Source: Clostridia bacterium
Lineage (GTDB): Bacteria; Bacillota; Clostridia; Christensenellales; Aristaeellaceae
Direction: 5' to 3'
Length of the DNA: 42,751 bases
Assembly (NCBI GenBank): GCA_017469025.1
Contig: JAFUHD010000277.1
Location: 1 to 42,751, forward strand
This document shows positions 1-7,458 of the stretch, piece by piece; within the stretch, counting starts at the first letter, position 1; every line of letters begins with the position of its first letter. The notes under the pieces are model-generated. The model saw only the letters and a list, made by a program, of their open reading frames with translations. It ran no database searches and was not told the DNA's origin. The position numbers and the translations under genes are program-made.

Positions 1-84
1 CTGCAGTATCCTTCGGCAGTTCCGTCACTGCCGGCACTGCAGTATCCTTCGGCAGTTCCGTCACTGCCGGCACTGCAGTTTCCG
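1..84 (-). repeat. 36-bp tandem repeat in the tail of the pseudo-FtsK gene
   Basis: Positions 1-36 and 37-72 are identical, and a third, decaying copy starts at 73. On the coding strand each unit encodes the 12 residues VPAVTELPKDTA. The contig begins inside the array, so the true copy number is unknown and the repeat probably caused the assembly to stop here. Confidence 0.9.
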
Positions 85-2443
85 CAGGAAGCTGTGTCGC
101 AACTGGTACAGTTGTATTCTTTGACTGTTCAGTTACCTTCGGCTTCTCAGTAACCATGGGCATGTCAGTCATGACTGGCTGGCCAGTTTCCACCTGCGCT
201 TCCGTCTGCGCCTGCGGGGCAGCTGTCGCCGGAGGCATTGTTGCTGCAGGCTCAGGCGTACTGGTGGAAACTGATGTACCTGTTCCTGCAGGAGCTGCCG
301 TAATCCTTATAACAGGTTCGGATGTATTCTGATTCTGGGACATGTCCAAACCTGCCGGATTGATAACAGGTGTTACAACCGGAGCTGAGGTAGGTACCGG
401 AATCGGAGTTTCTGTCGGCGCAGGTGTTACAGTCGTCCCCAGGATACGGCGGACAGGTTCAAGTGTCCGGATATCCGGGATTGCCACATGAAACTGGTTC
501 AGGATAGCAACAGTACCGCCAGCCAGAAGTGCAATACTGCATAATACTGGCAACACAGCCCTGCCGGAACCGGATTTCTGCTTTTTCCCCTGACTGTTCC
601 GAGGCAGTTCCGTATGTGTCTCTGCCGAATCCGGGTTTTCTTTTTCATCCTTTGACGGAGGTTCCGGACGATGTGGTTCAATATCCTTGCGAACCATTGG
701 AATCTCAGCAGCAGGATGAATATCAATTATCACTTCAGGATCCAATCGGGCAGACTTCGGTGTAATCCCACCTGCCTCTGTCAGAGACGATCCGCCGGAT
801 GGTATTTTTTCATCAAGCACAGCCGCGGCACGCTTAGGCTCTATAGATATTTTGGATTCAGTCCCCCGAAGGCCTGACTGCTGTTTGTCATCTGTCTTCG
901 GTTTCTTGTCCGTAGCTGCGGTTTTTGACCGCTTTGCAAGATTCCCGACAACATTCAGCAGTGCGGCAGAATGATGATCATCATAGAGTGTAAACGGCTT
1001 TTCTGCACGCTTGTAGCCATTTATTCTGCGATGGCGACGAATCTTAAGCGGTTCGCGCGAGATGACAGCATCCTTGCCTGCAAACAATATCCGGTCATCC
1101 GGAATCACGCTCTCATGCAGTACCTGTGAGCGTGTCTCCACAACTTCCGGTTCAGAGAACACAGGCTCTTTCAGTGGGTTTATCTCCGGCTCCATCAGCG
1201 GAGTCGCATCAATGACTCTGTCACCAAAGGTAAACAGCTGAACATCTTCTTTTTCCACTGGTTTCTCGACCTTTTCCTGAGGTTTAATGATCTCAGGTGC
1301 CGGAACCGGATGTTCAAATTCTGGCAGTTTCACCAGCCCTGCATACTTAACCGGATTTTGTTCACTCAAATACTTGACAATGGTATTAATATCGCTCTGT
1401 TCAATATAGCAGCAGTCAAGAAAATGCGGCGTATGCTCACCACGACGGATCTGATATTTCTTTACAAGCCGGTGTGTCGGTGATTCGCCATCTACAGCCC
1501 TTCTGAAACACAAGGTGCTCTTTGTGATCATCGGCACCGGTACCTGCTGAGAGGTAAACATGAAAAAGTGTATGCCAACCAGGAGACCATACTCACGGAC
1601 CATTCTAAGAACAGTAATGAATTCTTCATTTTCCATGAATGCATCCGCATCAGTAACAATGACCAGAAGACGCGTAAATGTCCTCTCATCTAGTCGGAGA
1701 GAGGCATTATATCCATCCAGAGACCTGGCACCTTTCGCCTCCATGACCGTCAGACGTTCCTGTATTTCCTGCCGGATCCATGCAATCGTCGAAAGACACC
1801 CCTCCGGCGTTACAATAGACGGCTCAAACAGGTGCGGCAATGTTTCGTAAGCATTCAGACACTTCCCGTTGTCAAGAAACAAAAACCGGATATCTCTCGG
1901 CGTAGTTCTGAACAGAAGCGCAATCAGAATTACATCTATCATGCCCGGAACACTGTCAACACTGTCAATTAGAAAAAAACATGAGAAAAAACGGATATCC
2001 AGTGTTTCAACCATATCCGTAAATGCCTTGCCGACCGGAATGGTCAGCTTGGACGGGCTGGACAGTATTTCACGGCTTTCAAGTGCAGTCCGCAGTTCCA
2101 GACTCACTGTCTGTTCTTTGGAGATCGTCAGAAGAAAAGCATGTCCATTGTCAGGGGCATTCTCAAGTGTCCAGTTATCCTTTTCAATCAGGTTAAGGAT
2201 GTTCCGTTCGAACATCTCTTTATAGTAACTCATAGAGAAGCGATCTTCAGAAATGATAATACCGAAAATGATCTTCTCATCTTGCTCTTCAAGCAAAAAG
2301 ACACGGGCTTCAAACCCATCCCGCATCAGTTCGCGCTCAATGATACCCCCTATCTCTTTCCAGTTCATGACGGTCTGATTCGGGTTCCCTTCAACGCGAT
2401 ACAGCGGTATCATGCTGAGTGAAGGCATCTGATATTTATTCAT
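1..2443 (-). CDS. Pseudo-FtsK: FtsK-like domain without ATPase motifs, membrane anchor and Pro/Thr tail (partial, no stop in window)
   Basis: The frame is open from ATG 2441-2443 to the left edge (about 814 residues), with GGGAG seven bases before the start. Residues 1-140 follow the start of the FtsK motor, including YQMPSLS and a TVSLELRTAL segment like the FtsK TVSLRE strand. Residues 140-240 keep the FtsK frame (KLTIPVGK, DIRFLFLD, LPHL, GARSLDGYN). Where FtsK has its Walker A loop (about residues 158-168) this protein reads LIDSVDSVPGM, and the Walker B region reads VIVTDADAFM (about 259-269), so neither nucleotide motif is usable. A segment at 333-360 resembles the FtsK stretch after the motor. 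A charged linker follows, then one membrane helix (about 628-650) and an exported-looking tail rich in Thr, Pro, Val and Ala ending in 12-residue repeats. Family descent is seen in the sequence; a non-enzymatic scaffold or DNA-binding role is inference. No N-terminal FtsK membrane domain is present. Confidence 0.75.
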   Translation of the reverse strand, partial: MNKYQMPSLSMIPLYRVEGNPNQTVMNWKEIGGIIERELMRDGFEARVFLLEEQDEKIIFGIIISEDRFSMSYYKEMFERNILNLIEKDNWTLENAPDNGHAFLLTISKEQTVSLELRTALESREILSSPSKLTIPVGKAFTDMVETLDIRFFSCFFLIDSVDSVPGMIDVILIALLFRTTPRDIRFLFLDNGKCLNAYETLPHLFEPSIVTPEGCLSTIAWIRQEIQERLTVMEAKGARSLDGYNASLRLDERTFTRLLVIVTDADAFMENEEFITVLRMVREYGLLVGIHFFMFTSQQVPVPMITKSTLCFRRAVDGESPTHRLVKKYQIRRGEHTPHFLDCCYIEQSDINTIVKYLSEQNPVKYAGLVKLPEFEHPVPAPEIIKPQEKVEKPVEKEDVQLFTFGDRVIDATPLMEPEINPLKEPVFSEPEVVETRSQVLHESVIPDDRILFAGKDAVISREPLKIRRHRRINGYKRAEKPFTLYDDHHSAALLNVVGNLAKRSKTAATDKKPKTDDKQQSGLRGTESKISIEPKRAAAVLDEKIPSGGSSLTEAGGITPKSARLDPEVIIDIHPAAEIPMVRKDIEPHRPEPPSKDEKENPDSAETHTELPRNSQGKKQKSGSGRAVLPVLCSIALLAGGTVAILNQFHVAIPDIRTLEPVRRILGTTVTPAPTETPIPVPTSAPVVTPVINPAGLDMSQNQNTSEPVIRITAAPAGTGTSVSTSTPEPAATMPPATAAPQAQTEAQVETGQPVMTDMPMVTEKPKVTEQSKNTTVPVATQLPAETAVPAVTELPKDTAVPAVTELPKDTA

Positions 2444-2645: not shown

Positions 2646-3455
2646 TCATATGGTATGCCAGGTATTGTCGTATGTATCTCTTTCCGCTTTCGTTTCAAAA
2701 GGCTTCACTCTTTGCCCGCCGCTCAGCCGGTACAGTATGGTATCAAGTGGTTCAGGGTGATAGAAAAGATACCCCTGGGCAAATTCACATCCGATCTCTT
2801 TCAGGAAATCACGCTGTTCTTCCGTCTCCACGCCCTCAGCCAGCGCGTGAATCCCAAGCCGTCTGGCAAGACTGACCATTGAGCGGAGGATCTCCCGGTT
2901 AACACCATTGTGATCATCCAGATGCTGAAGGAGTTCAAGATCAAACTTAACCAGATCTACGTCAAACCGGCTGAATAATACATTGATTGACGAATATCCG
3001 CTGCCAAAGTCATCCAGCCAGAGCGTAAAGCCGCTGCTGCGGATCCTGCGCAGCTGCTCCATGATGTTTTCACGTCCCGTAGCCATGTCCTGTTCGGTGA
3101 TTTCTATGATGAAAAAGCTCTTATCGATGCCATACCGGGACAAATCATATTTATCTATAATCCGGTCAAGTTCTGAAGCGATGTCCGCATGGTCAAAGTC
3201 CTGACGTGCAAAGTTAACCGAAACCGGCATCATAAGCAGGCCTGCATCATAACGTCTTCTAACTTCAACGCATACCTGTTCAAAAATGTACAGGTCCATC
3301 TGATACAGCAGATGGTATTTTTCAAATGTCGGAATGAATTCGGACGGCGGGATAATCCCGCGCACCGGATCCACCCATCTGGCCAATGCCTCAAACGTTT
3401 GTAAGTCATTCAGGTTCAGCCGTGCTTCGTCTTTAAGGAAAAATCCTTCATGTTT
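2646..3455 (-). pseudogene. 5'-truncated EAL-domain gene (cyclic-di-GMP phosphodiesterase remnant)
   Basis: The encoded segment carries most EAL-domain landmarks: EALARW, SVNFARQDF, FFIIEITEQ, LDDFGSGYSS, VKFDLELL, EGVET and QGYLF, so the metal and substrate residues from the EAL motif onward look intact. EAL domains normally begin about 20 residues earlier with a strand ending in a Gln-Pro pair that contacts the substrate; here this is replaced by unrelated sequence, and the frame closes at a TGA at 3456-3458. There is no ATG before the EAL motif; the only starts are CTG or the TTG inside the motif itself (3384-3386). I read this as the 3' part of a GGDEF-EAL or EAL gene that lost its front. 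An alternative is a short EAL protein using a non-canonical start. Such enzymes hydrolyse c-di-GMP to pGpG; activity here is doubtful. Confidence 0.7.
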
Positions 3456-5302: not shown

Positions 5303-5938
5303 TCAGGCTTTTTCTCCTGTAAACTGCTCAAAAGCATCTGCAAAACTGGCATTAACATCAAAAGGCGGTTCATATTCTACTTTGGATGTGACCATGCAGA
5401 GATCTATCCGGGTAGACATCTCATCCGCTTCACGATTCAGTTTTGCAAGATCATTCCGGATCACATTCCGGTTGAAATTGATCGTCGTTACACGCCGAAC
5501 ATCACAGCGATAAGTCACCTGATTTCCTTCTGCATTGAACCTGTATCCGGTTCCACCGTTTTCAATGACTTTCTCTGAACTGCGGATATCATTCATCTGC
5601 TTGAAGATTCTGGCAAGATTCTGCCTGGCTCCATTCAGAGAAACTTCACTGTCCATATCAATCTCAAGTGCATTCTTTGCCTTGCGAATGGCCGCATACA
5701 ATGCAGCTTTCTCATTGAGGAGATACATCATAAATCCCGCAATTTCCGTAATCTGCTCATCATATTCTGTCTCTGCAGTTACAGGTACTGTCTCATCCGC
5801 CGCCTCCTCCATCACTTTATGGCGAAGATACGTATTGGTCACCTTTGTAATATTTGCCTCATTTTCAAGGATCATCTGTCCCTCTTCCATGAGTGCCTGA
5901 AGCTTGTTCTGATAGCGGAATGCTTCTTTCAAATTCAT
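5303..5938 (-). CDS. Uncharacterised helical/coiled-coil protein
   Basis: A 211-residue soluble protein starting MNLKEAFRYQ, with GAAAGGATAG well placed before ATG 5936-5938. Residues 1-125 are predicted almost wholly helical with heptad-like spacing (for example KAALYAAIRKAKNAL); a short polar segment around VTYRCDVRR suggests a small beta element, followed by another helix rich in charged residues. There is no signal peptide, membrane helix or catalytic motif I recognise. It stands alone between shikimate kinase and the GGDEF gene. Proteins of this look occur in mobile elements of Clostridia and Erysipelotrichia, but nothing else phage-like is visible, so I give no function. Confidence 0.7.
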   Translation of the reverse strand: MNLKEAFRYQNKLQALMEEGQMILENEANITKVTNTYLRHKVMEEAADETVPVTAETEYDEQITEIAGFMMYLLNEKAALYAAIRKAKNALEIDMDSEVSLNGARQNLARIFKQMNDIRSSEKVIENGGTGYRFNAEGNQVTYRCDVRRVTTINFNRNVIRNDLAKLNREADEMSTRIDLCMVTSKVEYEPPFDVNASFADAFEQFTGEKA

Positions 5939-6321: not shown

Positions 6322-7434
6322 TTATTTGCAAAAAATACGATTCTTTCCTGCTGCTTTTGCCTGATAAAGAAGTTCATCAACATCATGCATGACCTTCTTT
6401 ATTTCTGTTTCTCCAGCACAGGAGATCACACCTCCGCTAAGTGTTACTACCAGATCCGGGACTTCATCAAAGTGTAGTGCCACGACATTTCTGCGGATTT
6501 CTTCTGCTCTGTTGTATGCCTCTTCAAGACTGCCGGCAGACAAAACGGATACAAACTCTTCGCCGCCATAACGGGAAGCAAGTTCCCCTTTCTTAATGTC
6601 TGCAAACCGGTCCAAAACACCGGCGATTCTGGAAAGGACCGTATCACCAAACCCATGGCCAAATGCATCATTCAGATGCTTAAAATTGTCAACATCAAAC
6701 ATTGCAACATACAAATTGTCACGCTTCAGTGTTTCATTCCTTTCATTCTTTTCCCCGCTGAATGCAATTTCAAGTCTGCGAAACAGTTCGCGACGGTTAT
6801 ACAGCCCGCTAAGCTCATCTCTCGTGGAAAGATTGCGCAGCTTTTCCATCAGCCTGGCATTTTGATCGCGCTCACGGTTATATGCAGTCAGAATCAGTGT
6901 CGTAATGGCATAAACCGGCAGACCGGACAAGAAAAGTGTTACCTTTACATCCTGATAATGTTGCCATTTCGTCACCTCGGAAACAAACTGCGGAAAAAGA
7001 TTTGACATGGTTACGGTCAGTTCCATCAACAACAGTGACAAAACAAAAACGATTCCTCCGAGATTTCCCCTCAGCATGATCGCTACCAGGAATAGACCGA
7101 CCAGAAAAAACAAACTCATTCCACTGTGAATACCGCCTGCAGCAAAGAATGTCAGTGGGAAAAAGATGAAGTTGATGACTATAACCAGTACAATTCTTTG
7201 CCCCTGCCTGTACTCCGGATGCTTCATGCTGAAAAAAAGCAGAATGAGTGTGAAAACGAGAATAAAAAAAGTAATAGCCTGGACACTAAATGGCAAACGC
7301 TGAATGACACCTGCAATACATGTAATGATACCTGAGGCAACAGCTACAAACAGCGTCATAAAGTAGATTCGTTCATCAAGTGTTTCCAGTGAATGCCAAA
7401 AATGCATCACGTGTTTTTTGATTTTCTTAATCAT
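6322..7434 (-). CDS. Membrane-bound diguanylate cyclase (GGDEF)
   Basis: Makes c-di-GMP from two GTP. The 370-residue product has about six N-terminal membrane helices (residues 20-190), then a GGDEF domain from about residue 205 starting STRDELSGLYNRRELF. The substrate segment reads FDVDNFKHLNDAFGHGFGD and the active loop is RYGGEEF, a catalytically competent variant. No RxxD inhibitory site precedes the loop, so product inhibition may be weak. The input module is a bare membrane bundle without a recognisable PAS, CACHE or GAF domain. I start at ATG 7432-7434 (GAAGGTGG upstream) rather than the earlier TTG. The only partner phosphodiesterase nearby is the truncated EAL gene, so c-di-GMP balance must rely on genes elsewhere. 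Confidence 0.88.
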   Translation of the reverse strand: MIKKIKKHVMHFWHSLETLDERIYFMTLFVAVASGIITCIAGVIQRLPFSVQAITFFILVFTLILLFFSMKHPEYRQGQRIVLVIVINFIFFPLTFFAAGGIHSGMSLFFLVGLFLVAIMLRGNLGGIVFVLSLLLMELTVTMSNLFPQFVSEVTKWQHYQDVKVTLFLSGLPVYAITTLILTAYNRERDQNARLMEKLRNLSTRDELSGLYNRRELFRRLEIAFSGEKNERNETLKRDNLYVAMFDVDNFKHLNDAFGHGFGDTVLSRIAGVLDRFADIKKGELASRYGGEEFVSVLSAGSLEEAYNRAEEIRRNVVALHFDEVPDLVVTLSGGVISCAGETEIKKVMHDVDELLYQAKAAGKNRIFCK

Positions 7435-7458
7435 ACCTTCCACCTTCAGATGTTTCAA

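Follow-up and report, generated by a model that had tools for sequence, protein, structure and literature searches.

What can become of a DNA pump when its motor fold is conserved and its ATP site is gone? The question is raised by one gene on a 42,751-nucleotide contig (JAFUHD010000277.1) in the assembly GCA_017469025.1 of a Clostridia bacterium of the family Aristaeellaceae; this entire contig (C285) is referred to here as the window. The gene, designated X, occupies positions 2..2443 of the minus strand and leaves the window at the contig end: its 5' part comprises 814 codons without a stop, which specify a pseudo-motor related to the translocase FtsK, a linker, a membrane helix and the start of a Pro/Thr tail. 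An earlier note on this DNA had proposed a non-motor form of FtsK tied to the envelope, serving either as a pseudo-subunit of FtsK/SpoIIIE hexamers or as a surface scaffold. X is probably no broken gene but a scaffold of the envelope; more specifically, the balance tips slightly towards a transenvelope scaffold that is specific to the clade and based on an enzyme-dead FtsK motor. Five carriers of X were compared: the genome of the window (G000; 373 contigs, 93.7% complete) and the genomes G002, G004, G016 and G023.

The descent of X from FtsK is evident from sequence comparison. The FtsK landmarks listed in the earlier note all lie in the minus-strand frame starting at 2443, and the remote-homology check suggested there returned significant matches by Pfam, PDB profile search and hhalign. 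The window part of X matches Pfam FtsK_SpoIIIE with E 5.1e-13 (49.4 bits, cut-off 24); the other four proteins score 40.8, 32.9, 25.9 and 23.4 bits, so that four of the five exceed the cut-off and G004 falls short. A PDB search with the profile of the five X proteins is headed by a chain named DNA translocase FtsK (2ius, E 4e-15). When the same profile was aligned by hhalign with one of 25 distinct FtsK sequences, deduplicated from 44 loci matching Walker A, 358 columns were paired (E 3.4e-21). The alignment begins at the YxxPSL segment before the alpha domain and stops at the end of the beta domain, and the pseudo-motor (1331..2437, minus strand, residues 3–371) is colinear with these two domains. 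Residue numbers count from a start at 2443, which is favoured by the copies of X in other species over the start at 2464 given by the open reading frame lister. No match to the gamma domain was listed by Pfam in the window part of X (up to E 10), in X of G004, G023 and G002 (up to E 0.5) or in X of G016 (up to E 0.001). Among the columns invariant in FtsK, 26 are retained in all X proteins and 100 are lost in all. The best-kept region (1694..1912, minus strand, residues 178–250) covers beta2-alpha2 and the motif SLDGYNASLR, which is identical in all five proteins: mean identity to FtsK is 29% here compared with 7–23% in other segments, and ranks fourth among 358 circular blocks of equal length.

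The residues that would bind and hydrolyse ATP have been lost, as the alignment indicates and as had been claimed from the window copy. The former Walker A (1946..1966, minus strand, residues 160–166, DSVDSVP) departs from the GxxGxGK[S/T] pattern in every carrier: under the hhalign pairing the lysine is replaced by V, T, T, M and M and the serine by P in four proteins and Q in the fifth. At the former Walker B (1646..1654, minus strand, residues 264–266, TDA) the hhhhDE pattern is likewise absent, the catalytic glutamate being replaced by D, P, P, D and P and the preceding aspartate, T in four, being kept in one of the five. The arginine finger that acts in trans, R620 in the accessible text of PMC7321959, which also lists DNA-contact residues, corresponds by residue spacing to position 287 of X (1583..1585, minus strand), where leucine is found in four proteins including that of the window and alanine in one. 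Positions R632, S634, V635 and G640 of DNA loop II, as numbered in the same text, are changed in X. An expectation that every DNA-contact residue is lost was contradicted: under the hhalign pairing, the positions of K643 and R661 hold K and R in all five X, and position 657, which has no aligned X residue, lacks a basic residue in the 25 FtsKs as well (numbering again from the accessible text). The earlier note had allowed for a single decayed copy among relatives with intact Walker motifs; these motifs are intact in none of the five X proteins, which together with the significant FtsK match argues that X is not one decayed copy.

Beyond the pseudo-motor, the linker, single membrane helix and Pro/Thr tail are present as described. 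The linker (557..1303, minus strand, residues 381–629) contains proline, glutamate and lysine at about 10% each and no cysteine. In its otherwise variable sequence a basic motif around RRxxGY at about residues 435–465 was matched as a pattern in three of the five carriers (L028, L029, L031) and appears similar by eye in the window X and G023. The helix (500..556, minus strand, residues 630–648, VLPVLCSIALLAGGTVAIL) has a mean hydropathy of 2.35 and is the strongest hydrophobic stretch of the window protein; a strong stretch is present in all five. A second, weaker peak (1.66) lies within the pseudo-motor at residues 158–176. No membrane domain was recognized ahead of the motor, the strongest hydrophobic stretch following it. 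Basic residues stand just ahead of the helix in all five proteins and, by the positive-inside rule, would place the dead domain inside the cell and the tail outside. The tail (2..499, minus strand), rich in proline, threonine and alanine and probably exported, extends for 166 residues in the window, again without cysteine, and its tandem repeat runs to the contig end.

The contig breaks inside this repeat, and the remaining part of X appears to be carried by another contig of the same genome (C341, L025:1-987). The two ends overlap by 79 bases with one mismatch or by 43 with none, which leaves the repeat register unsure, and the join is presumed. C341 prolongs the frame by 329 residues and ends in a PG_binding_1 domain (E 1.2e-10). 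Among the other carriers, a single contig carries X through to its end in G004 and in G023, where a contig boundary removes the first residues; G016 has the tail on a separate contig, and the X of G002 is complete. PG_binding_1 exceeds its cut-off at the end of X in four of the five carriers, G000 being counted through the presumed join, and was not found by Pfam in G002 although X is complete there. A membrane helix and a wall-binding domain, the two features expected of a wall-anchored scaffold, are thus both predicted in X, and an ATP-site-dead protein with a wall-binding tail matches the envelope-tied, non-motor form that had been envisaged. The PG-binding ends of three X proteins (L029, L030, L145) also match the N-terminal part of SleB, a spore cortex-lytic enzyme, in NCBIfam at 21.0, 30.8 and 23.8 bits (cut-off 236.5); such weak matches are expected because the PG_binding_1 domain is common to both. 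A second protein of the window genome is interrupted where similar Pro/Thr repeats reach a contig end (L026, G000:C75, 6091-9423, minus strand); it has SH3_3 domains, with two stretches over the limit, and by eye a hydrophobic stretch before a charged C-terminus.

All five X proteins are alike in architecture and contain no stop within the matched stretches, so the domain order that the earlier note had proposed to look for in related genomes recurs in five species. The pattern of substitution marks X as being under purifying selection. In the closest pair, G016 and G004 (89% protein identity), the proportions of synonymous and nonsynonymous differences (pS and pN) are 0.64 and 0.07, dS is 1.44 and the ratio of nonsynonymous to synonymous substitution rates (dN/dS) is 0.048; among the remaining nine of ten pairs it is 0.10–0.31 in seven and not computable in two. 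As synonymous sites are near saturation in every pair, these ratios are rough.

The distribution of X is narrow. It was matched in five of 29 genomes of its genus (draft assemblies, 75–99% complete) at 584–746 bits, a range in which the FtsKs of the genus, reaching 82.4 bits at most, do not intrude. Among 308 genomes of the family, five matched at E 1e-27, all within one genus; this limit was chosen to exclude true FtsKs and would hide very distant X proteins too. Of the 120 family genomes with a completeness of 90% or more and a contamination of 5% or less, two carry a match. The X of G000 stood alone in a sample of the order (396 genomes, only two of them from the genus of X; 717 bits, next score 92) and was again the sole match in a sample of the class (391 genomes). 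No relatives were found in viral contigs, nor in a contig scan with the window sequence alone as query; with the X alignment as query the scan gave four matches. Named records exist for four of the five carriers (uncultured Clostridiales RUG11251, Christensenella sp. UBA4263 and two Clostridia bins whose titles give goat and roe deer rumen as their source), so that at least two of the five come from animal rumens.

Two further genes accompany X. The order X-Y-Z-upp is found on single contigs in G002, G004 and G023, with one extra gene between Z and upp in G004, and is split over two contigs in G016 and, through the presumed join, in G000. The gap between X and Y, computed in four carriers, is 37–111 bases, a spacing suggestive of an operon. 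Y (860–1073 residues) has a hydrophobic N-terminus or membrane helix and repeats whose TPR matches stay below the Pfam cut-offs; no PDB match to it was found up to E 0.1. Z (544–566 residues, interrupted by an assembly gap in G004) has a signal-like start by eye and SH3_3 at its end in both of the Z proteins scanned; in the PDB search it matched SH3-type ends and, weakly, two unrelated oxidoreductases. With profiles built from four carriers for Y and three for Z, the genomes with long matches to Y (1252–1614 bits) and Z (530–1016 bits) are precisely the five X carriers among the 29. In the other 24 the best scores are 85.1 bits for Y and 85.7 for Z, both in G021, and the matches are mostly short TPR or SH3 stretches. 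Co-occurrence and adjacency of the three genes are therefore apparent from the assemblies themselves. The best Y match among non-carriers, at 85.1 bits, is a TPR protein of 1400 residues that ends in DUF6273 (L146 2189-6388, G021:C160, minus strand).

The tree of the true FtsKs bears on how the three genes were acquired. A separate FtsK with intact Walker motifs is present in four of the five carriers, no FtsK match being found in the draft assembly of G016. The tree comprises 27 of 30 loci, three lacking a frame that meets the Walker A pattern, and covers 23 of 29 genus genomes. In it the four carriers whose FtsK was usable cluster together (support 96/87), and G021 is their neighbour (97/93); very long outgroup branches and the long branch of G021 call for caution in reading this tree. 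In G021 upp, the glycosyltransferase and the radical-SAM gene are retained, and X, Y and Z are all missing from the region ahead of upp. The simplest reading of this arrangement is a single gain of X, Y and Z on the branch of the carriers.

Taken as a whole, these features suggest the following arrangement. X would have branched off from FtsK, conserving the alpha-beta fold of the motor but not its motor function, and would now form the cytoplasmic end of a transenvelope scaffold. Lying under the membrane, the dead domain would probably self-assemble into a ring or partial ring through its retained FtsK-type beta2-alpha2 surface: in the accessible text of PMC11154593 this region is named as an inter-subunit contact in a modelled ring of the EccC5 DUF, and by analogy with that related family residues 178–250 of X may correspond to it. 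The single helix would lead X outward, the long Pro/Thr tether would cross the wall space and, in most species, the PG_binding_1 domain would hold peptidoglycan. Y, with its membrane helix and TPR-like array, and Z, with its signal-like start and SH3b end, are co-inherited with X and may be outer partners that bind it. The surface scaffold mentioned in the earlier note fits the PG-binding end and these envelope partners.

Two readings are the least compatible with the evidence. That X is a decaying FtsK duplicate or an assembly chimera might be suggested by the loss of ATP-site residues, by an assembly of 373 contigs and by a window that ends in a repeat; this is exceedingly improbable, being contradicted by the like architecture in five species without stops in the matched stretches, by a dN/dS of about 0.05 in the closest pair and by three other genomes in which X, Y and Z follow in this order on one contig. 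Very little more can be said for a relic of a type VII secretion ATPase (EssC/EccC), whose extra domains are degenerate too. In its favour, the beta domain of X matches EssC in NCBIfam weakly, at 24.5, 16.3 and 14.9 bits (window, G023 and G004; cut-off 778), G023 and G004 have no FtsK match listed beside EssC, and the PDB matches include a chain named EccC (5fv0, E 0.04). However, the window X scores higher against FtsK, at 36.7 bits extending into the alpha domain (cut-off 1566), all of these NCBIfam scores being far below the curated cut-offs, and FtsK chains head the PDB list. As regards G000 alone, type VII secretion is further disfavoured: no WXG100 match was found in this 93.7% complete genome (a control search was positive in two of 14 genomes), its only two FtsK_SpoIIIE proteins are X and a full FtsK (228 bits), and X has a single domain of this kind.

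Several observations lend some credit to two functional alternatives to the scaffold. Separate FtsKs exist in four of the five carriers; SpoIIIE can work past non-consecutive inactive subunits, and the same is cited for FtsK in the accessible text of PMC4728128; and the best-kept region of X corresponds to a contact region of the modelled EccC5 ring. X might therefore join FtsK, as a pseudo-subunit or docking partner that joins or caps the septal rings, ties them to the wall and tunes or positions the DNA pump. In addition, a pseudo-motor, a membrane helix and a PG-binding end are united in one protein whose dead domain is conserved, as would suit a wall-to-cytoplasm sensor in which the state of the wall is detected by the PG-binding end or by Y and Z and relayed by the dead domain to a cytoplasmic partner. 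The pseudo-subunit is rather unlikely. The arginine finger, which would reach into the neighbour's ATP site, is lost in all five X proteins; four residues of DNA loop II are lost too; the helix follows the motor, whereas the membrane domain of FtsK precedes it; and 24 of the 29 genus assemblies, many of them incomplete, have no X. The loss of the arginine finger and an identity of only 19–20% to the FtsKs of the same species argue for a ring or patch formed by X itself rather than for joining FtsK. The fuller version, in which X co-assembles with its own FtsK as an ATP-dead, wall-tethered subunit and anchors the pump both in peptidoglycan and in a Y-Z complex outside, is a shade more doubtful still. 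The sensor is to be regarded with much the same doubt: Pfam finds no signalling domain in X, Y or Z, and long linkers on both sides would be poor at transmitting conformational change. The transenvelope scaffold is retained as the preferred reading.

PASTA kinases and RodZ combine a cytoplasmic domain, one membrane helix and a wall-facing part. X resembles them in this layout and differs in that its cytoplasmic domain is a dead FtsK motor. With FtsK and SpoIIIE it shares the colinear alpha and beta domains from YxxPSL on and the RxxP, GYN and other motifs; it differs in the absence of the Walker A lysine and serine, the Walker B glutamate, the arginine finger and a gamma match, in its one membrane helix after the motor and in the PG-binding tail of four of the five proteins. 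The degenerate ATPase domains of EccC and EssC, as described in the accessible text of PMC11154593, have an FtsK-like fold with lost Walker motifs, as X has, and a proposed role in inter-subunit assembly. They are part of multi-domain secretion ATPases, in contrast with the single domain of X, whose genome (G000) has neither WXG100 matches nor a third FtsK_SpoIIIE protein. Degenerate FtsK-like domains inside type VII secretion ATPases are already known from that source. In the portions of the openly licensed literature that were accessible, no free-standing, ATP-site-less FtsK alpha-beta domain tied to membrane and wall was found, and no description of a natural pseudo-subunit of the FtsK ring. 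If the scaffold reading is true, evolution can redeploy the FtsK fold as a structural component of the envelope, and X would be a natural tool for separating the assembly role of this fold from its ATP role.

A role in anti-phage defence was considered and rejected: PADLOC gave weak matches only (SspH at 13.8 bits for the window X and Csx1/Csm6 at 22.9 bits for Y), judged to be chance or TPR-like similarity. The EAL-domain protein encoded upstream of X in the window (2646-3386, minus strand) is matched from profile position 35 onward and may therefore have a lost or misread start; a GGDEF protein (6322-7458, minus strand) lies nearby. Also in this part of the window is a protein without a Pfam match (5303-5938, minus strand); one with a similar start is found near X in G016 (L028 4425-5060), and it is possibly a conserved neighbour of X.
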